DNA of 58,157 bases from positions 1 to 58,157 of IMG/VR virus record IMGVR_UViG_3300023220_000531. One strand, given 5' to 3'. A program made the position numbers and the translations under genes. This stretch comes from a virus. The notes under the pieces are model-generated. The model did no database searches and was not told the DNA's origin. It worked only from the letters and a program-made list of their open reading frames with translations. Below are positions 9,364-38,546 of this stretch, in pieces; the first letter of the stretch is position 1, and every line of letters starts with the position of its first letter.

Positions 9364-9860
9364 GGCACTAACTCGGTATCTGCTTTTACGTATAAAGGAT
9401 GCTTCGGATTTCCATTTTTAGTGGTACCCAGGCAATAGAATTGCTCTACATTACTTTCTTCGACTAAAAGCTCAGGCCAATTCTTATCCCAATCGGCGCC
9501 GTTACCCCACCCTATAACAACTTTGTCTGAAATTTTCGTGCATACATCGACGTGGACCAAATTTTGGATCATAGAATCTCTTCTGTCCCAATCGCCGCGA
9601 ATATCCCAATCTTCAACAATTCGTCTGCATTCCTTTGATGATGGTGTTCTAAAGGGGTATAAATTTACGGCCAAAAGAGAATCAAAACCCCATTTTTTGG
9701 AGAACCCTATTATTCTTCGTAGTGTTGGGTCGTCTTGTTCGGCGTCTGCTGTAGAGGGATTCAACATAATCCAACAAATAATCTTGGATCCGTCAGACCA
9801 TTTTCTTTTCAACCACCATCGACAATTACCGGTGATTTTTGCTTTGCGTTCCATTTCCAT
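9354..9860 (-). CDS. DUF1643 family protein
   Basis: A 168-residue protein with the family's signatures: WIMLNPSTADAEQDDPTLRR near the start, then WGFDSLLAVNLYPFRTP, a central VVIGWGNGADW, and YCLGTTKNGNPKHPLYV at the end. The catalytic role of DUF1643 is not established. Start at 9860 is chosen because AGAGGG lies upstream; an in-frame ATG at 9884 has no such signal. Overlaps the FN3-like gene by ten bases. Confidence 0.8.
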   Translation of the reverse strand: MEMERKAKITGNCRWWLKRKWSDGSKIICWIMLNPSTADAEQDDPTLRRIIGFSKKWGFDSLLAVNLYPFRTPSSKECRRIVEDWDIRGDWDRRDSMIQNLVHVDVCTKISDKVVIGWGNGADWDKNWPELLVEESNVEQFYCLGTTKNGNPKHPLYVKADTELVPWT

Positions 9861-9896
9861 ATTATTCAACCCTCTGGATATCATTTAGGATGACTA

Positions 9897-10061
9897 TCAC
9901 AACTTCGATCCTATTTGATTCAGTTTGTGATTCTGTGCATCAGACAGCTCGTAATCGTCGTCATGTTCTGCAATGCTATCAATGAACTCAACCTCCCAAT
10001 CGTTTAAGTCTTCAGGGTAATCGATAGCGTCTTTGATGATCTGCTTTTGTAATCTGTTCAT
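9897..10061 (-). CDS. Small acidic helical protein (phage WE-F-SI type)
   Basis: A 54-residue ORF. The pattern D..DLNDWEVEFIDSI...LS.AQ..KLNQIGSKL matches a very common small phage protein whose helix ends with an LS..Q...L..I..KL repeat; no function is known. ATG at 10061 overlaps the upstream stop (ATGA), supporting a real gene in the leftward operon. Confidence 0.6.
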   Translation of the reverse strand: MNRLQKQIIKDAIDYPEDLNDWEVEFIDSIAEHDDDYELSDAQNHKLNQIGSKL

Positions 10062-10998: not shown

Positions 10999-11168
10999 TA
11001 TTTTTTACCTGCTACAAAATCAATCTGTTTATGTTTGTTGAATTCATTTAGCCAAGCCGACTTCCATGGTTGCTTTTTGAACGGGCAATGGCTGACTGAT
11101 GTCGATAATCGAGCATGAGCCCAACAATCGGTGAAAGGATTGCGTCTGGACTTTTTATCCTTTGACAT
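10998..11168 (-). CDS. Small Rmf/CrpP-like protein
   Basis: A 56-residue protein (MSKDKKSRRNPFTDCWAHAR...) with HCPFKKQPWKSAWLNEF near the end. The pattern (basic start, aromatic/acidic centre, CPF, then W..AW) resembles the ribosome modulation factor and its phage relatives (CP.....W..G). It overlaps the 3' end of rtcB by 14 bases; ATG 11168 chosen because the longer frame would run deep into rtcB. Homology is suggestive, not certain. Confidence 0.5.
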   Translation of the reverse strand: MSKDKKSRRNPFTDCWAHARLSTSVSHCPFKKQPWKSAWLNEFNKHKQIDFVAGKK

Positions 11169-12372
11169 TGAGAACCTGCCGCAACCTATAAACAATTTCA
11201 ACAAGGTCATCTTGAGCCGCCATAACAGCGCCGATATCTTTGTAAGCTGCTGGGCTTTCATCGAGGACGTCTTTGTCTAGCCTTGCTTCAATTCCTTCCA
11301 TAGCAGCTGCATGCTGTTCGAGAGTAATCTCCCTGTTTGCTTGGGTTCGCGACATTACACGACCTGCACCATGAGAACAGCTACAGAAAGAGTCTTTGTT
11401 GCCTAACCCTCGAACGATGAACGACCCTGTACCCATTGAGCCAGGTATAATCCCTAAATCGCCTGTGCGAGCCCTAACGGCCCCTTTACGAGTGATCCAC
11501 ACGTTTGAACCGTAATGATTTTCGCGGCTGATGTAGTTGTGATGGCAGTTAACCGCTTGGTCGGTGACTGAGAACTCTGGCAAGGATTTATGCAGTACAC
11601 TTAAAATTGCCTCCATCATTGCCTTTCTATTTTCCAAAGCATAATCCTGCGCCCACCCAACTGCATTAACGTAATCGTCAAATAATTCTGTGTGCTCCAC
11701 CAGGTAAGACAGGTCTTTATCCGCGAGATACTTATCAATGTGGTATCGTTCCATTTCTTCCTTAGCTTTCTGGATGAAATAAGTACCGATTCTATTGCCG
11801 ACACCTCTTGATCCAGAATGCAGCATAATCCAAACAGCGTCATTTTCATCAAGGCATAATTCGATAAAATGATTACCGGTTCCAAGCGTTCCCATGTGAG
11901 ACCAGTTATTAAATGATTTGGCCTTTGGATGCTTTGTCAAAATATCGCAGTAACGGTAATACAGCGCATCCCATCGCTTTATATGAGGGTTATTGTCTCC
12001 CCATCTGCCGCGATCATTTTTGCCACCGTTATCAGTTCTGCCATGGGGAACGGCTTGTTCAATCTGACATCTTATTTCGTGAAGATTATCTGGCAACTGA
12101 TCGGCTCTCAACGTGGTCTGGTAGGCCATCATTCCACAACCTATATCGACACCTACAGCAGCTGGGACAATAGCTCCCTTGGTAGCTATCACTGATCCGA
12201 TAGTCGCACCCATACCCCAGTGCACATCAGGCATAGCGGCAACGTGTTTGTGAATAAATGGAAGGGATGCGACATTTTCTAGCTGTTCCTCTGCGCGCAC
12301 ATCCAGCAATACACCGTTAGTCCAATGCTTAATTGGCACGTTTTTAGTTTCTTTGTAAATATATCCGCCCAT
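11155..12372 (-). CDS. rtcB: RtcB-type 3'-phosphate RNA ligase
   Basis: A 405-residue protein of usual RtcB length. It contains the hallmark metal and active-site segments: MPDVHWGMGATIGSV near residue 47, GVDIGCGMMAY near residue 74, HSGSRGVGN in the centre, and the guanylylated-histidine loop SHGAGRVMSR near the end. RtcB seals RNA with 2',3'-cyclic phosphate ends using GTP and Mn2+. A phage copy could repair tRNA or mRNA cut by host anticodon nucleases. ATG 12372 has GGAG six bases upstream, better than the GTG just before it. Confidence 0.93.
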   Translation of the reverse strand: MGGYIYKETKNVPIKHWTNGVLLDVRAEEQLENVASLPFIHKHVAAMPDVHWGMGATIGSVIATKGAIVPAAVGVDIGCGMMAYQTTLRADQLPDNLHEIRCQIEQAVPHGRTDNGGKNDRGRWGDNNPHIKRWDALYYRYCDILTKHPKAKSFNNWSHMGTLGTGNHFIELCLDENDAVWIMLHSGSRGVGNRIGTYFIQKAKEEMERYHIDKYLADKDLSYLVEHTELFDDYVNAVGWAQDYALENRKAMMEAILSVLHKSLPEFSVTDQAVNCHHNYISRENHYGSNVWITRKGAVRARTGDLGIIPGSMGTGSFIVRGLGNKDSFCSCSHGAGRVMSRTQANREITLEQHAAAMEGIEARLDKDVLDESPAAYKDIGAVMAAQDDLVEIVYRLRQVLNVKG

Positions 12373-12390
12373 CACTGTCTCCTTTAATTT

Positions 12391-17010: not shown

Positions 17011-18291
17011 TTAAGCCTCGTACTTACCATCGACAATAACTATTTCTTGTGGCTCGATATCGCCGCGGCTTACCCTGGTAGATAAGACTTGAATTCCTTC
17101 GCCGTTAAATAGTGTTTGAAGCTTTAGAAAATCATCCTTCGACATTGATTCAACACCATCCATTCGAACAACCTTCAGTGGATGGGCTTTTATATCCTCA
17201 ATGGCAAGCGCTGCGCATACCAGCATTTGCTCTGATTCACCGAGGTTTGAAAGAAGACAGTCATTGTATATAACGTTGCCGTCTTCAATGGTTAGCCCAG
17301 GGATAGGCCAAGCGGCTGATTCTAGCGCTTTGGATTTAATCTCGACCATTTCTCTAACGTCCACGTCAGCTTTTCTATGGGCTTCAACCGCTTGTTCGTG
17401 ACGCTCTGATTGATCAAGCCAATTTTTATGAGTAGATGCTGTCTCGTTGATTTGTTGAGAATTGTTAATCTGTCCAGTTACTTCGTCGGTGTCGTGGTCT
17501 ACCAATTTCGCAACGGCTTCATTCCCTGATTTTATCCGAGATATGAGGGTTTCATATGTGGCCTTTGCGCCGTTAAGCTCGCATTCTTTTTCTATCAACT
17601 CCTTTTTTATCGCTTCGATATCGTCAACTATTTCGTTTATATTTTCTTCTTCGTCGGTTTTCTTATCGACAAGCCCAGCAAGGAAATCACGAGTTTTTTG
17701 ATTATCGGCATTGGTTACTTGCATCTTATCGCGACTAGAAATCAGTTCAGAAATATCAACGGCTTCTGCCTTTTCTGGTTCTTCACCGACCTTTAATAAT
17801 TCGGCTTTTCTGTGCAAATCCAACCGCTCTTCACTAAGCGATTCAATTTTGTTTTCAGTCTCGGTTAAATCGATATCGAGCTTTGCAGACTTCAGAAGCG
17901 TTTCACTTTGCGCCTTTGGTTTTAAACTCATTATCTGATGAGGATTGACAGACAGATCACTAATCATTTTTTTGAAATCAGAGACTGTAATGGTGGACTT
18001 TTTACCCTTCTCATTGATTGCTGTCAGGGTCACATTTGAGCCACTAGGCGTTGTTTTTCGCTCGGCGTATATAGTTTTGCTACCATCACTCAAAGTAACC
18101 GCTATGGTGCCTTTCTTTTCGCCATGGCGTAACATATCGCTACGCTTAGACAAAATATCGTGAAGAGCTGTTATCGCTGTTGTTTTTCCTGTGCCGGTAC
18201 CACCAGACATTTCCAGGTTGTTACCGTTTAAATTTACGTCAAAGCATTCAATGACGCCTGTATTTACTATTTGTATCGATGTTATTTGCAT
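17011..18291 (-). CDS. SMC/RecF-like ATPase
   Basis: A 426-residue P-loop ATPase of the RecF/SbcC/RecN type. Walker A GGTGTGKTT at residues 30-38 directly after a short N-terminal strand pair, then a long charged helical coiled-coil-like centre (about residues 120-310), and a C-terminal signature-like LLSNLGESEQMLV followed by KVVRMDGVESMSKDDF and VLSTRVSRGD. It is downstream of ERF and the YqaJ exonuclease, so it probably assists recombination or DNA end handling. Specific function unknown. Confidence 0.75.
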   Translation of the reverse strand: MQITSIQIVNTGVIECFDVNLNGNNLEMSGGTGTGKTTAITALHDILSKRSDMLRHGEKKGTIAVTLSDGSKTIYAERKTTPSGSNVTLTAINEKGKKSTITVSDFKKMISDLSVNPHQIMSLKPKAQSETLLKSAKLDIDLTETENKIESLSEERLDLHRKAELLKVGEEPEKAEAVDISELISSRDKMQVTNADNQKTRDFLAGLVDKKTDEEENINEIVDDIEAIKKELIEKECELNGAKATYETLISRIKSGNEAVAKLVDHDTDEVTGQINNSQQINETASTHKNWLDQSERHEQAVEAHRKADVDVREMVEIKSKALESAAWPIPGLTIEDGNVIYNDCLLSNLGESEQMLVCAALAIEDIKAHPLKVVRMDGVESMSKDDFLKLQTLFNGEGIQVLSTRVSRGDIEPQEIVIVDGKYEA

Positions 18292-18296
18292 TTTTA

Positions 18297-18935
18297 TTAC
18301 TCCGATAAAAGGATTTTATAGCTTTCGACTAGGGTGTTAAATTCAAGCAATTCTATTTCCATTGCTTCAATAAAGGTTTCGTCGCGCTCGACTCGAATAA
18401 TGGTCAAGTCTTTGCCAATTGATTTAAGCGCAGGGCAATATAAAACGAAGTCAGACCACTTGCGGCCGGTGATCCATAATTGGCCTTGAACTTGGTCTTC
18501 GCAGCTTGAGATATCGCCATTCAAAAGAATTGGCATTAATGATTTAGGGCTGATGAAACATTTGTATTCAGAGCTTCCGTCATTACCAATAAGGCCATCA
18601 GCGCTGGCACCAAATAACCGATCGTCAGTAAAAACTATTCCTGTGTGCTCGATTAGCATCCCAATCTTTTGCTCATGAAGAAACCTGGCTTCAGGCTCTA
18701 ACTCTCTACCCCGGCGCATTTCAAAGGTGTCAAACTTATCCTCTGAGAGCAGTTCACCGCTAATACGCTCAACGGCTAACCTGAAGGCATATTCTCGCGC
18801 CTTGCCTGTAAAATCACCCTTGTTAGCTCCAGACTTTAACCGCTTTCGGCATTCCTCGAAGTTGCTGGCCGTGATACATCCAGAACGTTCTATAAACCAT
18901 TCCTCAGATCCTTGCTCGCAATCTATGACTATCAT
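18297..18935 (-). CDS. YqaJ-type viral exonuclease (lambda Exo-like)
   Basis: A 212-residue protein with the PD-(D/E)XK exonuclease pattern: GSEEWFIERSGCITASN near the start, RRGRELEPEA, FGASADGLIGN (Asp113), then SSEYKC (Glu123, Lys125). It would resect double-stranded DNA ends 5' to 3', making 3' single strands for the ERF protein encoded next to it. The start overlaps the ERF stop (ATGA). Confidence 0.85.
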   Translation of the reverse strand: MIVIDCEQGSEEWFIERSGCITASNFEECRKRLKSGANKGDFTGKAREYAFRLAVERISGELLSEDKFDTFEMRRGRELEPEARFLHEQKIGMLIEHTGIVFTDDRLFGASADGLIGNDGSSEYKCFISPKSLMPILLNGDISSCEDQVQGQLWITGRKWSDFVLYCPALKSIGKDLTIIRVERDETFIEAMEIELLEFNTLVESYKILLSE

Positions 18936-19705
18936 GCCTCTTTCTCCATTAGTGATTTAAGGTGGTTCATGCAGGCGTCGTACCTAACCGCCCAAAGCTC
19001 TTCTACTTTATTCACCCGCGCTTTTTTGCAAATGTAATCATAATCTTCACCAACAGCCTTTGCGGCACCTATAAGCTTTTTAACCTGTTCTGGCGTGACT
19101 GTTGGTTGGGTTGGTGGATTTCCGTCTTTGTCTTCTTCGGCTACTGCAATGTTAAATATCATACAAAAAAGATATCTCCTCCCATACGACAATGTGGATC
19201 CAGCGGCATGCACCCCAGTTTTATTAGCGGTTCCCTTTATTCCAGAACCATCAGGTGGCAAGTCTAAAAAATAGTGTTTACTGTGGCCAGCGTTGTGCAT
19301 TACTTCGCAGGTAACGCGAATGTAGGTTTCTATTGGAGAAATATCTGTTCCAAATGAAAGCGCGAAACCGTTTCTAGTGTAAGTTGATTGAGTAGTGATA
19401 AGAATGCTTTCAAATTTTGCATAACTACTATTGGTTTGTTTGTTTTCGGCATCCTTTACAACCGTTGGCATTTCTTCCTGGCAGATAGCCATCGATTTTT
19501 TATATGATTGGACAGCGTCGCGCTCAACCATATCAACATGCATGACCATTAAGCGCTCCATCTTATCGACATCGCTATTTGGGTCAGATGCCACTTTCTG
19601 AATGATAGATAAAATCGCGCCTGCGTTATCCATCACTACAGCAACATCTTTGCTTTCTTCTGCAACAAGTACTTCTGATTCAATTACTTCTGATTCAAAT
19701 TCCAT
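18932..19705 (-). CDS. erf: ERF-family single-strand annealing protein
   Basis: A 257-residue protein. The central part has the ERF signature: YAKFESILITTQSTYTRNGFALSF, then TCEVMHNAGHSKHYFLDLP, and GVHAAGSTLSYGRRYLFCMIFNI. These proteins anneal complementary single strands in phage recombination and DNA circularisation. Here it is paired with the YqaJ exonuclease. The acidic N-terminal 25 residues (ESEVIESEVLVAEESK) are extra. The 81-base gap upstream (19706-19786) holds an RBS (GAGGAAAT). Confidence 0.85.
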   Translation of the reverse strand: MEFESEVIESEVLVAEESKDVAVVMDNAGAILSIIQKVASDPNSDVDKMERLMVMHVDMVERDAVQSYKKSMAICQEEMPTVVKDAENKQTNSSYAKFESILITTQSTYTRNGFALSFGTDISPIETYIRVTCEVMHNAGHSKHYFLDLPPDGSGIKGTANKTGVHAAGSTLSYGRRYLFCMIFNIAVAEEDKDGNPPTQPTVTPEQVKKLIGAAKAVGEDYDYICKKARVNKVEELWAVRYDACMNHLKSLMEKEA

Positions 19706-24579: not shown

Positions 24580-24902
24580 TGACCACAGGATATAGAAGTA
24601 CAATTTTAGAATGCCCAGTTTGCTACGATGATATGGTTTTCCTCGAGCATATTTCTGGTAATTCCTTCGTTAAATGCAAAAGCCTTTGTGATCCAATACT
24701 TATTCACAAGCATCTGGCTAAACTCGAACCACCAGAACCAAAGAAAAAACCTCTATCAGAACTTGTTTCAGATCAATTTTTCATGGATGTTATTTCATAT
24801 GCTCGCAGCATAGGAAAGGAGATATCGGACGCAGATTTAAAGCATGAACTGATTATCTGGAAGCGAACCAAGGCGACCAGGGAGGCCAATAAAAATGGCT
24901 AA
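24579..24902 (+). CDS. Hypothetical protein with a Cys4 site
   Basis: A 107-residue protein (TAATG coupling). ECPVCYDDM and VKCKSLCDP form a possible zinc site, followed by a Pro/Lys linker and a helical end. It directly precedes the replication initiator and overlaps it by eight bases; possibly a replication accessory factor. Confidence 0.55.
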   Translation: MTTGYRSTILECPVCYDDMVFLEHISGNSFVKCKSLCDPILIHKHLAKLEPPEPKKKPLSELVSDQFFMDVISYARSIGKEISDADLKHELIIWKRTKATREANKNG

Positions 24903-25647
24903 AGGTTGGGCTAAAATTGATAGAAGAATTACCGGTCATTGGTTATGGAAAAGCGAACCATTCAGTAAAGCGCAGGCGTGGATAGATTTGATATTAAGCG
25001 CCAATCACACACCGACTAAAATAAACATAAAGGGAACTATCATCCCGTTGTCGATAGGCGATCAAGCAAGATCAGAAATCACATTATCTAAAACCTGGTT
25101 ATGGTCCAGAGGAAAGGTTAGACGGTTCTTAAAGCTACTCGAAAAAGACGGAATGATAATACAACAGGCGGGACACCTGACAAGCGTTATAAGTATTTGT
25201 AATTACACGACTTATCAGGACAGCGCATCAGTCAACGGTACAACTAATAGTACATCTGGCGGTACAACAGGCGGACAACAGGCGGGACACAGTAAAGAAT
25301 TTAAGAATGAAAAGAAAAACAATACTTCGGAAGAAACCGAAGGTGATGTAAAAAATATATGTGACAAGGATGTTGAATTAGCAGAATGGATTTATGACAA
25401 GATTCTTATACGCATCCCTAAAACTAAAAAACCTAATTTTAATAAATGGGCTGACACCGTACGACTAATGAGACAACAAGATAAATTCACTCATCGTGAA
25501 ATAGCTGAGGTTTTCAAATGGGCCAACAACGATGGATTTTGGGGAGGAATTATCCTTAGCCCAACCAACCTAAGAAAACAATTTGCACAATTACACGCCA
25601 AAGCAAACCCAAAACAACCAGAACAAGAAACGGAAAATCTATTATGA
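24895..25647 (+). CDS. Replication initiator (lambda O / DnaT-like)
   Basis: A 250-residue protein. The N-terminal 100 residues form the phage winged-helix initiator domain (KAQAWIDLILSANHTP... SLSKTWLWSRGKVRRFLKLLEK). The linker (residues about 110-145) is Thr/Gly/Gln-rich with QQAGH repeats. The C-terminus is DnaT-like (WADTVRLMRQQDKF, FKWANNDGFWGGIILSPTNLRKQF). It should bind an origin in its own gene and load the helicase encoded next. RBS GGGAGG. Confidence 0.8.
   Translation: MAKGWAKIDRRITGHWLWKSEPFSKAQAWIDLILSANHTPTKINIKGTIIPLSIGDQARSEITLSKTWLWSRGKVRRFLKLLEKDGMIIQQAGHLTSVISICNYTTYQDSASVNGTTNSTSGGTTGGQQAGHSKEFKNEKKNNTSEETEGDVKNICDKDVELAEWIYDKILIRIPKTKKPNFNKWADTVRLMRQQDKFTHREIAEVFKWANNDGFWGGIILSPTNLRKQFAQLHAKANPKQPEQETENLL
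25161..25290 (+). other. Probable origin of replication inside the initiator gene
   Basis: ACAACAGGCGGGACAC occurs at 25161-25176 and 25275-25290; an 11-base ACAACAGGCGG also occurs at 25264-25274, directly abutting the latter. Each encodes QQAG. Right after the repeats the DNA is A-rich (about 25291-25360), as at lambda ori where iterons are followed by an AT-rich segment, inside the O gene between its N- and C-domains. Confidence 0.55.
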
Positions 25648-26624
25648 ACATGGTCATACCTCAGTTCGATTATAACGACAAAGAGTTAATTGCTTTTATC
25701 GGCCATCAAGAATCACAAAGGATAAAAACGACCGTTGATTATAGAGATTCAGTGGCCGAAAGATTAAAAAACGGCAGGGTTCTTAGAGGCGATAAATTGC
25801 CATGGGGTAAAACTCATGAGTATATCGCTTTTGCTGAAGGCCAGGTTTCAATATGGGCAGGTATCAACGGGCACAAAAAATCTATGCTGCTGAGTATGGT
25901 TATGATGTGGTTCTCAAGGATTGCACCAGCTGGAATAGCGTCTTTTGAAATGCCAGTTATCGACACCATGGAAAGATTGATATCACAGGCCGCAGGTTGC
26001 AGCCCCGCCAAACAATTCGGACAGGATTGGCTAACATGGGGTGAGAATAAATTATTCTTCTATGACCAGCTAGATACGGTACCCACTGAAAGGGTTTTAG
26101 GTGTTATTTACTACATGGCCACCCAGTGTGGATGCAAGCATGTAATGATCGATTCATTAGCTAAATGCGGAGTATCTGCCAACGACAAAGACGCTGAAAA
26201 AAGATTTATTGAATTGCTTGTGGCCACAGCAAAGGCACTTAAGATTCATATACATTTGGTTGCTCACGTTCGAAAACCCCCACAAGGTGGTGATGAATAC
26301 ATTCCACAAAGGTTTGATATACGTGGAGCTGGTGAGCTTACAGACCTTGTTGATAATGTTCTGGTTGTTTGGGCTGACAAGAAACGAGAAAAGCTAAAGC
26401 GTAAAGAGCTTTCCTCAAATACCCTAACCGACAGCGAAAGAGAATATTTAGACAGCAGGCCTGATCAGCGTTTAGTTGTAAGAAAACAAAGAAATTGGTT
26501 CTGGGAAGATACAGTTGCTCTTTGGTTTGACGATGACTCATTGCAATTTATGGGTGACAACACAAGAGGACCAATGGGTTTCGACATACAACAAATCGAA
26601 GGCGATCTTTACGGTGGACGTTAA
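25644..26624 (+). CDS. Replicative helicase (DnaB/RecA-fold)
   Basis: A 326-residue single-domain ATPase. Walker A-type AGINGHKKSM at about 72-81, Walker B HVMIDSL (Asp170), a sensor-like HLVAHVRKPP, and RFDIRGAGELTDLVDNVLVVW, all typical of the RecA-fold DnaB/T7 gp4 helicase core. No primase domain. It overlaps the initiator gene by four bases and so pairs with it. Confidence 0.8.
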   Translation: MNMVIPQFDYNDKELIAFIGHQESQRIKTTVDYRDSVAERLKNGRVLRGDKLPWGKTHEYIAFAEGQVSIWAGINGHKKSMLLSMVMMWFSRIAPAGIASFEMPVIDTMERLISQAAGCSPAKQFGQDWLTWGENKLFFYDQLDTVPTERVLGVIYYMATQCGCKHVMIDSLAKCGVSANDKDAEKRFIELLVATAKALKIHIHLVAHVRKPPQGGDEYIPQRFDIRGAGELTDLVDNVLVVWADKKREKLKRKELSSNTLTDSEREYLDSRPDQRLVVRKQRNWFWEDTVALWFDDDSLQFMGDNTRGPMGFDIQQIEGDLYGGR

Positions 26625-28300: not shown

Positions 28301-29557
28301 TTGATTTACGGTTCAGTTTGTAGCGGGATAGAAGCGGCCAGTTGTGCATGGGAGCCATTAGGCTGGAAGGCTGCTTTTTTATCCGATATAGAGAAATTCC
28401 CCCGGGCAGTGCTTAAACATCATTATCCTGAAATCCCGCTACACGGCGACTTTACAACAATAGGCGAAAAAGATTATGGACCAATTGACCTTCTTGTCGG
28501 AGGAACCCCATGTCAAAGCTTCTCAATCGCTGGACTCAGAAATGGGATGGAAGACGACCGCGGTAACTTGGCGATCGAGTATCTTAAATTGGCTGATCGC
28601 AAAAGGCCCAAATGGATGGCTTGGGAAAACGTGCCCGGCGTCTTGTCATCTAACAAAGGAAGGGATTTTGGAGCCTTCCTCGGAGGGTTGGTCGAACTCG
28701 GGTATGGGTTCAGCTACAGAATTCTTGACGCTCAGTTCTTCGGAGTTCCACAAAGGCGTAGACGTGTGTTCGTTGTCGGATATCTTGGAGACTGGCGACC
28801 TGCCGCAGCGGTATTATTTGAGCGCGAAAGCTTGCAAAGGAATCCTAAACCGAGCCGAAAAGAGAGGGAAAATATTACCTCGTTTACTACAGGAAGCTTT
28901 GGAGGCTACAAACCAGGTGTCGGAACTTTAAGGGCCAGAACTGGTGATGTGGGTGGTGGATCTGAAACACTAATCACTGGAACGCTTTTGAATAACGGAA
29001 AGGCCGCTGGTAGCACAACACAACAGTGCCCAGAGAATGGAATGTTCGTCGTTCACGGCACTCAAGACCCTGATGTAAACATTGATCTTGCTCATCCATT
29101 AGGCAGGAATAACGGCGCTGAAAACGCTGTTGCTTTTACCCAGAATTCACGCGATGAAGTTCGATTGATTGGAGGTGATGGCGATATAGCTGGTTCATTG
29201 TCAGCGAATGAGGGGATGAAACAAAGAACTTATGTCGCCGCGTTCAAGGCTGGTCAGGGTTCAAAAGCTGGTGGAATCGGTTTCTCGATCGAGCAGGCAC
29301 CAACATTAACTTCATCGGATAGCGGAACGCAGGCAGCACCAGCACTCCTAAAAAATAATAAGGTTCGGCGCCTAACTCCAATTGAATGCGAAAGACTTCA
29401 AGGATTCCCAGACAATTGGACCAAAATACCCTGGAGAAATAAAACCGTAGCGGATTGTCCAGACGGACCACGATACCGAGCAATAGGAAACTCAATGGCT
29501 GTACCGGTGATGTCCTGGATAGGAAAAAGAATTGATATGGTTGATAAATTATTATGA
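28301..29557 (+). CDS. C5 cytosine DNA methyltransferase
   Basis: A 418-residue protein with all key motifs in order: motif I-like GSVCSGIEAAS at the start, motif IV GTPCQSFSIAG (catalytic Cys71), ENVPG at 109-113, QRRRRVFVVG near 151, and motif X GNSMAVPVMSW. The variable region (about 170-330, Gly/Ser-rich) would set target specificity, which is not readable here. No restriction partner is visible, so it is likely protective against host restriction. Starts with TTG. Confidence 0.92.
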   Translation: MIYGSVCSGIEAASCAWEPLGWKAAFLSDIEKFPRAVLKHHYPEIPLHGDFTTIGEKDYGPIDLLVGGTPCQSFSIAGLRNGMEDDRGNLAIEYLKLADRKRPKWMAWENVPGVLSSNKGRDFGAFLGGLVELGYGFSYRILDAQFFGVPQRRRRVFVVGYLGDWRPAAAVLFERESLQRNPKPSRKERENITSFTTGSFGGYKPGVGTLRARTGDVGGGSETLITGTLLNNGKAAGSTTQQCPENGMFVVHGTQDPDVNIDLAHPLGRNNGAENAVAFTQNSRDEVRLIGGDGDIAGSLSANEGMKQRTYVAAFKAGQGSKAGGIGFSIEQAPTLTSSDSGTQAAPALLKNNKVRRLTPIECERLQGFPDNWTKIPWRNKTVADCPDGPRYRAIGNSMAVPVMSWIGKRIDMVDKLL

Positions 29558-36469: not shown

Positions 36470-36970
36470 ATGAGCCAGCAGAATCCAACAATCACACAGG
36501 CCAATAAATACGCTAAGAACTTTATTCTCTATGGGGATATGTCAAAAGCTTTTATGGTCGCATTTCCTGATTCCAAATTAAAGCCAGCAGGTGTAAATAC
36601 TAAAGCCTCAGCAATTCATAAAACAGTTGAGATTCAGTTGAGAATTGAAGCCTTGCAGCTGGCAGCCAAGAAAGCAGCTGAGAAAAAGTTTGCTTTGACC
36701 ACCAATGACCTACAAAAAACTCTCTCTAAGGTGATGAAAAAAGGACTGTCTGACAAAAAAGATAAGCATGGAAATAAATCTGCACAAAACCTTTCAGCTG
36801 TCGTATCAGCAATAAAAGAAGTCAATTTAATGAATGGCAACCATGCCAAAATACAAGCTAATATAGAACTTACCCCGGGCGATGGCGCAAGTATGGAAAT
36901 GAAAGTAACAAGCGATCCGAAAGAATCTGGTAAGGCATACCAGGCAATGTTGAACGGCAATAATGAATGA
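36470..36970 (+). CDS. terS: Terminase small subunit
   Basis: A 166-residue protein starting at the ATG at 36470. The first 50 residues have an HTH-like helix pattern (TITQANKYAKNFILYGDMSKAFMVAFPDSK), followed by a long charged helical region (VEIQLRIEALQLAAKKAAEKKF; LSKVMKKGLSDKKDKHGN). This is the usual small terminase layout (DNA binding, oligomerisation) and it immediately precedes the large subunit, overlapping it by eight bases. Confidence 0.75.
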   Translation: MSQQNPTITQANKYAKNFILYGDMSKAFMVAFPDSKLKPAGVNTKASAIHKTVEIQLRIEALQLAAKKAAEKKFALTTNDLQKTLSKVMKKGLSDKKDKHGNKSAQNLSAVVSAIKEVNLMNGNHAKIQANIELTPGDGASMEMKVTSDPKESGKAYQAMLNGNNE

Positions 36971-38546
36971 TTTCGATTTCAAGAACCCAGATTACCCAGC
37001 TGTATTCGAGGAAAGGGCCAGGCGGTTAACATGGCTTAGGGCCAACCCTGAACAACTTGGTCACTTAAAATTCTATTACAAAGAAAATATAGCGCAATTC
37101 ATCACTGATTGGGGCATGACTTATGACCCTAGAAACGCTAATACTAAATACCCTTCAATCCTCCCGTTCATACTTTTTCAACGACAAATCGAATTCATCG
37201 AAGAGTTAATTTATTGTTGGCAGAACAATCTACCTCTTGTCGTGCCAAAGTCTCGAGAAATGGGTTTGAGCTGGTTATGTATCGGTGCTGCATGTTCTAT
37301 TGCGCTTCTTAATGATGGGTTTGTTGCTGGTTTTGGGAGTCGTACAGCCGAATATGTGGATAAGATAGGATTTCCCAAGTCATTGTTTTATAAAGCCAGA
37401 ATGTTCTTGAAATTCCTTCCTGTTGAGTTTCGTGGTGGTTTCGATGAAAAGCGACATGCACCACATATGCGAATCAACATACCTGATACCGGTTCATATT
37501 TAACTGGTGAGGCAGGGGATAATATAGGCCGCGGTGACAGGACTTCTATTTATTTTATTGATGAAAGCTCTCATCTTGAAAGACCTCACTTAATCGAAGC
37601 ATCGTTATCACAAACTACTAATTGCCGCATCGACGTATCAACTGTGAATGGCACTGATAATCCTTTTTATACAAAAGTTATTGGTGGAAAAATACGCTCT
37701 TTCCCATTCCATTGGCGCGAGGATCCCAGAAAAGACCAAGCCTGGTATGACAAACAGGTAGAAGAACTCGACCCGGTTACGATAGCCCAAGAAATAGACA
37801 TGGATTTCCAGGCATCAAAAGAAGGAATCATTATCCCCAGCAAATGGGTACAGGCTGCTATTGGTGCACATAAAAAGCTCGGTATTGAGCCAACAGGGAC
37901 AAGGCAAGGGGCAATGGATGTTGCCGATAGGGGTAAAGATAAAAACGCCTTCTCAGGTAGATATGGTTTTTTACTGGAATTTCTAGAATCGTGGAGCGGC
38001 AAGGATGCAACAGAGGATATTTTTGAATCGGTAGAAAAGGTATTCGTGATATGTGACACCGAAGATTACGATTTATTTTATTACGAGTCAGATGGTCTTG
38101 GCGCCGGTGTCCGTGGTGACGCGAGAGTTATCAATGAAAGGCGTAAAGAAGAAGATCAAAAACAAATAGCGGTCGCATCATTTAGGGCATCAGGTGAGGT
38201 GGTGGATCCAAAGAAAGAAATGGTGAAGGGTCGAAAAAATAAAGACTATTTTTACAATCACAAGGCCCAGGGATGGTGGTGGCTGAGGATTCTATTCCAG
38301 AATACTTGGCGAGCACTACAGGGTAAACCGTACGATATTGATAAAATTATATCAATTGATGAGAATTTGGCAGAACTTCAGAAGCTATGTACTGAATTAT
38401 CGCAACCGACCTATTCACTAAAAAACGGTAAAATACTAGTTAACAAACAACCAGACGGATCCTTGTCGCCAAATTTGGCAGACTCGGTTATGATTAATTA
38501 CGCGCCTGTTAAGCTAGGAAGAGAAGTCAGAGTTGTAGTTATATAA
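36963..38546 (+). CDS. terL: Terminase large subunit
   Basis: A 527-residue protein. ATPase: Walker A-type VPKSREMGLSW at 94-104 and Walker B IYFIDESS with D200/E201. Nuclease domain: GAMDVADRGKDKNAF (Asp319), then YYESDGLGAG (Asp377), matching the RNase H-like fold. It packages DNA into proheads and makes the cuts. Packaging mode is not obvious; the circular assembly fits headful packaging, though pac or cos could not be located. Confidence 0.9.
   Translation: MNDFDFKNPDYPAVFEERARRLTWLRANPEQLGHLKFYYKENIAQFITDWGMTYDPRNANTKYPSILPFILFQRQIEFIEELIYCWQNNLPLVVPKSREMGLSWLCIGAACSIALLNDGFVAGFGSRTAEYVDKIGFPKSLFYKARMFLKFLPVEFRGGFDEKRHAPHMRINIPDTGSYLTGEAGDNIGRGDRTSIYFIDESSHLERPHLIEASLSQTTNCRIDVSTVNGTDNPFYTKVIGGKIRSFPFHWREDPRKDQAWYDKQVEELDPVTIAQEIDMDFQASKEGIIIPSKWVQAAIGAHKKLGIEPTGTRQGAMDVADRGKDKNAFSGRYGFLLEFLESWSGKDATEDIFESVEKVFVICDTEDYDLFYYESDGLGAGVRGDARVINERRKEEDQKQIAVASFRASGEVVDPKKEMVKGRKNKDYFYNHKAQGWWWLRILFQNTWRALQGKPYDIDKIISIDENLAELQKLCTELSQPTYSLKNGKILVNKQPDGSLSPNLADSVMINYAPVKLGREVRVVVI

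Follow-up and report, generated by a model that had tools for sequence, protein, structure and literature searches.

A phage initiator gene with out-of-frame 11-bp linker iterons and a wing iteron as a probable embedded origin of lambda type

Embedded origins of phages are known from a few model phages. In the Lactococcus phage TP901-1 the replication gene orf13 contains its own origin repeats. In SPP1, the origin oriL consists of direct repeats and an AT-rich unwinding element within the initiator gene, and gp38 binds the oriL repeats inside gene 38, with nanomolar binding measured (PMC6316719). For the Staphylococcus phage 80alpha, ORF20-21 were found to support plasmid replication, the origin is thought to lie within ORF20, and an ORF20 deletion was not complemented in trans (PMC5499656).

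The DNA analyzed in this work, referred to as the window, is the 58,157-nucleotide stretch of the IMG/VR record IMGVR_UViG_3300023220_000531, which may be a fragment. One of its genes encodes a replication initiator and very probably carries its own origin of the lambda type, made up of iterons and a melting region. An earlier note on this DNA had proposed such a lambda-like embedded origin, and the O-like C terminus of the protein, iterons at the domain junction and the low-stability DNA that follows them support this proposal. The repeats, their out-of-frame 11-bp phasing, the wing copy, the low-stability neighboring DNA, the helix covariation and the domain make-up were all computed directly. 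The features of the locus are:

24895-25647, + strand: initiator gene (250 aa), with winged helix, disordered linker and lambda O-like C-terminal domain
24895-25221, + strand: codons of the N-terminal winged helix, residues 1-109 (AF2 secondary structure; Foldseek neighbors)
25105-25125, + strand: codons of residues 71-77, where the recognition helix (72-84) begins; top covariation window
25161-25176, + strand: wing iteron ACAACAGGCGGGACAC, codons 89-94 (IQQAGH) of the wing hairpin, identical to 25275-25290
25239-25250, + strand: degenerate linker unit TACAACTAATAG, from sequence reading; parallel unit TACAACAGGTAG in the related gene L004
25251-25262, + strand: degenerate linker unit TACATCTGGCGG, with a 2-mismatch match at 25252
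25263-25274, + strand: linker iteron TACAACAGGCGG, holding the exact 11-mer at 25264
25275-25290, + strand: linker iteron ACAACAGGCGG plus terminal GACAC, 11 bp after the preceding iteron and in another codon frame
25291-25445, no strand: A-rich low-stability stretch adjoining the iterons, candidate unwinding element (stability profile)
25360-25605, + strand: lambda O-like helical C-terminal domain, residues 156-237 (PHROG profiles, tblastn, AF2)
25644-26624, + strand: DnaB/RecA-type ATPase gene, candidate helicase, with a 4-base overlap between its start and the initiator stop

The initiator matches phrog_2514 (DnaD-like helicase loader) over its full length (residues 2-247 against profile positions 2-252 of 270, E=4.3e-60), and its C-terminal part matches the O-like profiles phrog_391 and phrog_277. 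The alignment with phrog_277, the lambda O family, covers residues 150-242 (E=2.6e-24) and only profile positions 201-293, with no match to the N-terminal DNA-binding domain of lambda O. By tblastn, residues 158-241 share 41.7% identity with O from lambda-sized records; in L016, one such record, the gene order is cI/cro/cII/O/P. In the AlphaFold (AF2) model (pLDDT 82), the winged helix (residues 1-109) is followed by a disordered linker (116-148) and the helical C-terminal domain, and the strands of the wing hairpin are predicted at 88-92 and 97-101. With Foldseek, the winged helix came closest to generic regulators of the winged-helix type and to the plasmid initiator 4pt7, in no case at E<=0.001, and a sequence search of solved structures with the initiator gave no significant match. 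By its likeness to lambda O, the C-terminal domain is presumed to contact a helicase or loader. The ATPase encoded downstream matches AAA_25 (E=5e-9), DnaB_C (E=1e-5) and the primase/helicase profile phrog_239 (E=2.5e-36). Among related genes, L004 and L005 have N-terminal winged helices similar to those of L006 and L007 and different C-terminal domains, the junction being the repeat-bearing linker.

The repeats of the window are exactly as the earlier note had described them, a 16-mer present twice with an abutting 11-mer, and they exceed what shuffled sequences yield. The 16-mer ACAACAGGCGGGACAC is identical at 25161-25176 and 25275-25290 on the + strand, and the extra copy of the 11-mer ACAACAGGCGG at 25264-25274 abuts the second of these at 11-bp spacing. 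A search of both strands of the whole 58 kb found exact ACAACAGGCGG at three sites in all, and the ACAACAGGCGGGACAC pair is the longest exact direct repeat of the window among those at most 300 bp apart. When the initiator gene was dinucleotide-shuffled 1000 times, the longest repeat was 14 and never reached 16; an 11-mer in three copies arose by chance in 1 of these 1000 shuffles and, when synonymous codons were permuted, in 5 of 3000 permutations. The 25161 and 25275 copies are read in one codon frame and the 25264 copy in a different one, so the triplet is no protein repeat. All copies had been assigned to the linker, which holds for the cluster at 25264 and 25275 but not for the copy at 25161, located in codons 89-94 of the wing hairpin. 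The copies named were also correct, but the array is longer than described: it extends over 25239-25290 as TACAACTAATAG-TACATCTGGCGG-TACAACAGGCGG-ACAACAGGCGG-GACAC, with direct tandem units of 11-12 bp, and thus places direct iterons in the disordered linker between the two structured domains.

Phage records and viral contigs supplied the homologues, which were reduced to a first set of 68; a second set of 70 genes, drawn separately, shared with the first at most 75% of nucleotides over 200 bases. In total, 137 related genes were compared with the initiator of the window. A scan of genome contigs found no close relatives, and the viral sets therefore carry the comparison. Among the 68 homologues, self-similarity of the linker DNA exceeded that of synonymous-codon permutations at lag 11 (+3.3 of 20) and lag 22 (+2.8), followed by lags 23, 9, 33 and 12. 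The second set gave z=19.7 at lag 11 and z=18.3 at lag 22; since homologues share descent, these and the other permutation z-scores should not be read as exact probabilities. Neither 11 nor 22 is divisible by 3, and repetition of the protein cannot produce these lags. When 2.9 million viral contigs were searched blind for the tandem repeat ACAACAGRCGGACAACAGRC, 12 stretches were returned, and all 12 fall in this initiator's linker, on the coding strand and in two codon phases. Checked by gene, 10 were strong by profile, one was a weak match in a truncated gene and one, also in a truncated gene, was recognized by eye. The earlier note had counted homologues that keep QQAGH-type residues without the DNA repeats as evidence against an origin. 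The opposite was observed: homologues keep the DNA repeat while the reading frame changes, and L023 and L024, with a wing of the QQAGH type, retain repeat-like DNA. Inverted copies of the iterons gave weak signals (z 2.3 in the wing, 3.1 in the linker).

The upstream copy in the wing is likewise found beyond the window. The 13-mers of each linker were matched to the upstream coding DNA of the same gene and compared with the linkers of other genes, positions being counted from the conserved Asn of ITIxNYxxYQ as anchor. Across 280 bases, the sole clear own-linker peak lies at -46 to -22 from the anchor, which are the wing codons. In the first set, the wing-linker permutation gave z=10.5 (0 of 20000; background z 0.8), all three frame offsets were significant (8.6, 8.9 and 4.9), and the observed wing match was 10.79 against a synonymous null of 9.91 (sd 0.09). 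The signal was found again in the second set (z=8.2, 0 of 20000), where positions outside the wing never rose above z=2.4, and among 18 sequences of less than 45% identity (z=5.4, 0 of 50000). In a 3-kb scan, 1.5 kb to each side, the linker dominated together with the wing bin, which had z=8.0. In the initiator gene of the window, the wing copy matches the gene's own linker at 16 of 16 positions (synonymous-null p=0.007). Taken singly, 21 of 68 genes have a wing copy at p<=0.05, with several unrelated repeat sequences, examples being TCAAAACAACATCAAA in phage PVL, AAACGAAACGCAAACG in L051 and ACAACAGGCGGGACAC in the window. At the level of the family, then, the wing copy is a statistical feature that is pronounced in certain members and missing or degraded in others. 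Some 900 bp before the NYxxYQ anchor, a separate own-iteron bin showed a weak excess (z=4.0, 63 loci), which may be another site or chance.

The protein and its repeats also covary. In a covariation test on 138 genes, using 7-residue windows and with overall N-domain identity removed, the best predictor of linker repeat similarity was the window from residue 71 (partial r 0.34). Residues 71-77 were the top window in each set alone (partial r 0.38 and 0.39) and, among distant pairs (<=45% identity), came first by a narrow margin (0.186 versus 0.161 at residue 3, the best outside helix and wing). A second peak at residues 89-92, in the wing, is partly trivial because the iteron encodes those residues. 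Genes grouped by residues 71-74 pair SRGK with ACAACAGAC, DKSK or NKSK with GAAACGCA, SNTK with AAACGACA and SKTK with AAACCACAA. This helix covariation is indirect evidence that the N-terminal domain may bind the repeats, and the apparent pairing of residues 71-74 with the iteron is open to direct test.

On the C-terminal-coding side of the iterons lies AT-rich, easily melted DNA. The A-rich tract noted earlier after the repeats is present, with 38 A in the 70 bases of 25291-25360, and only 0.2% of window positions are more unstable than the 100 bp at 25346-25445, the iterons themselves being relatively stable. At 127 homologous loci, mean instability is highest 90 bases beyond the anchor; when 1.8 kb of each locus is considered, 69 of them have their least stable 50 bp at +50 to +199 from the anchor. 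Nucleotide skew, suggested earlier as a check, does not discriminate: no turn occurs at 25.2 kb, and the GC skew turn at 20-21 kb coincides with a change of gene direction, away from the repeats. As skew tracks gene direction in the window, it was dropped as an origin marker.

A RecE-like exonuclease is encoded beside an Erf-like ssDNA annealing protein, against the direction of the initiator operon (18297-19705, - strand), and the 14-mer TACTTCTGATTCAA is repeated with 15-bp spacing at 19670-19698, near the start of the Erf-like gene. Just downstream of these recombination genes is an ATPase of phrog_1499, a profile with no assigned function, whose N terminus weakly matches PtuA (17011-18291, - strand; E~8e-4). 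Further genes include an RtcB-type tRNA splicing ligase (11155-12375, - strand; phrog_1075, E=3e-147) and a C5-cytosine DNA methylase longer than its profile (28301-29557, + strand; Pfam E=6e-57), part of which matches phrog_864, labeled DNA primase, probably a fused-profile label. A 527-aa ORF upstream of the portal gene (36963-38546, + strand) gave no PHROG or Pfam match and is, by position, a candidate for a divergent large terminase. In line with the earlier note, which saw no lambda-type integration genes, neither a tyrosine integrase nor a serine recombinase was found in the window with searches whose controls worked; in a search for the Mu transposase C terminus, the control genomes gave no signal.

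Initiator binding, melting, helicase loading and origin activity are inferred from these data, and may proceed as follows. The N-terminal winged helix would bind the tandem 11-12 bp iterons in the linker codons and also one further iteron about 100 bp upstream, in the codons of its own wing. Iterons 11 bp apart lie on nearly the same helix face, so that several initiators could stack side by side. The stacked initiators may bend or wrap the DNA and thereby open the A-rich stretch to the right, and the lambda O-like C-terminal domain would then recruit the helicase, which is probably the DnaB-type ATPase of the following gene.

The same repeats might instead be initiator binding sites whose main role is to regulate how the initiator operon is transcribed or expressed, the origin being located elsewhere. 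The helix covariation fits binding by the gene's own product and alone does not prove an origin, and the weak upstream signal, some 900 bp from the anchor (z=4.0), would also suit such a role. However, regulation appears improbable given the family-wide low-stability DNA beside the repeats, a layout equal to that of lambda ori and the genetics of the related 80alpha gene (PMC5499656). Another possibility is that the linker repeats are hot spots of recombination or slippage that aid domain swaps of the initiator and have no binding role, as the C-terminal swaps at the linker junction (L004/L005 versus L006/L007) might suggest; this is highly unlikely, since it predicts neither the 11/22-bp phasing nor a wing copy at fixed position nor covariation with recognition-helix residues. 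Least likely of all is that the repeats are a by-product of a low-complexity Gln/Thr/Gly/Lys linker with biased codons: linkers are indeed rich in Q, T, N and K, and the signals at lags 9 and 12 are in part NKN/NDKN and TTDG codon repeats, but repetition at the protein level was rejected because the synonymous-codon nulls are exceeded and the same DNA is read in different frames, with lags of 11 and 22 that are not multiples of 3.

An embedded origin of the iteron-plus-melting-region kind is thus the preferred reading, and its wider form is, on balance, probable: a large initiator family, present in phages of Gram-negative and Gram-positive hosts, would use a dual-coding bipartite origin in which out-of-phase 11-bp linker iterons are combined with an iteron in the wing of the binding domain itself, and residues 71-77 would form a readable code of iteron specificity. 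Such a wing iteron is unusual in that the DNA-contacting segment of the protein and its own candidate binding site occupy the same bases; if this is true, wing residues and binding site must evolve together. One architecture is legible from sequence in many uncultured phages, and origins could be predicted wherever the initiator occurs. Searches of the freely readable literature found neither 11-bp nor wing iterons described for this initiator family.

Among known systems, lambda resembles the window in having an origin embedded in its initiator gene, where the DNA-binding domain adjoins the one that recruits the helicase, in the succession of direct iterons and an A-rich melting region, and in a homologous C-terminal domain (41.7%). 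In contrast, lambda iterons are about 18 bp long, hyphenated-palindromic and spaced 20-24 bp (L016), whereas those of the window are direct tandem units of 11-12 bp, and the N-terminal profile of this family gave nothing significant against lambda O. Lambda is not known to have a wing iteron. The likeness to lambda noted earlier therefore stands for the embedded layout but not for the iterons or the DNA-binding domain: judged from sequence, the locus would work like ori-lambda and shares the C-terminal domain of O, and it is not lambda O by its N terminus or its iterons. Staphylococcus phage PVL orf46 (L014) belongs to the same N-terminal family; its linker has repeats at 11, 22 and 33 bp, and 16 bp are copied exactly in its wing, but its iteron is CAACATCAAAA-like, its wing copy differs in sequence and its C-terminal domain is of another type. 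Phage 80alpha shares an origin embedded in its initiator gene ORF20 (annotated putative origin at 9674-9899), and the rep gene of Lactococcus phage Tuc2009 is annotated as containing its own origin. Unlike the window, 80alpha has in-frame 15-mers 30 bp apart and a DnaC-like loader downstream, the main repeats of TP901-1 and Tuc2009 are 15 bp and in frame, Tuc2009 having a single 10-mer pair at 11-bp spacing, and the N termini of all three miss the profile of this family. For these mainly 15/30-bp in-frame repeats and for their N termini, the three phages were rejected as examples of the same iteron design; they support the origin class and not the 11-bp design. The phage A2 origin was set aside as a parallel, being annotated downstream of its primase gene and not in a homologue of the initiator gene. 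The embedded-origin class is already known; what appears to be new here is the 11-bp phasing, the wing iteron and the apparent recognition code.
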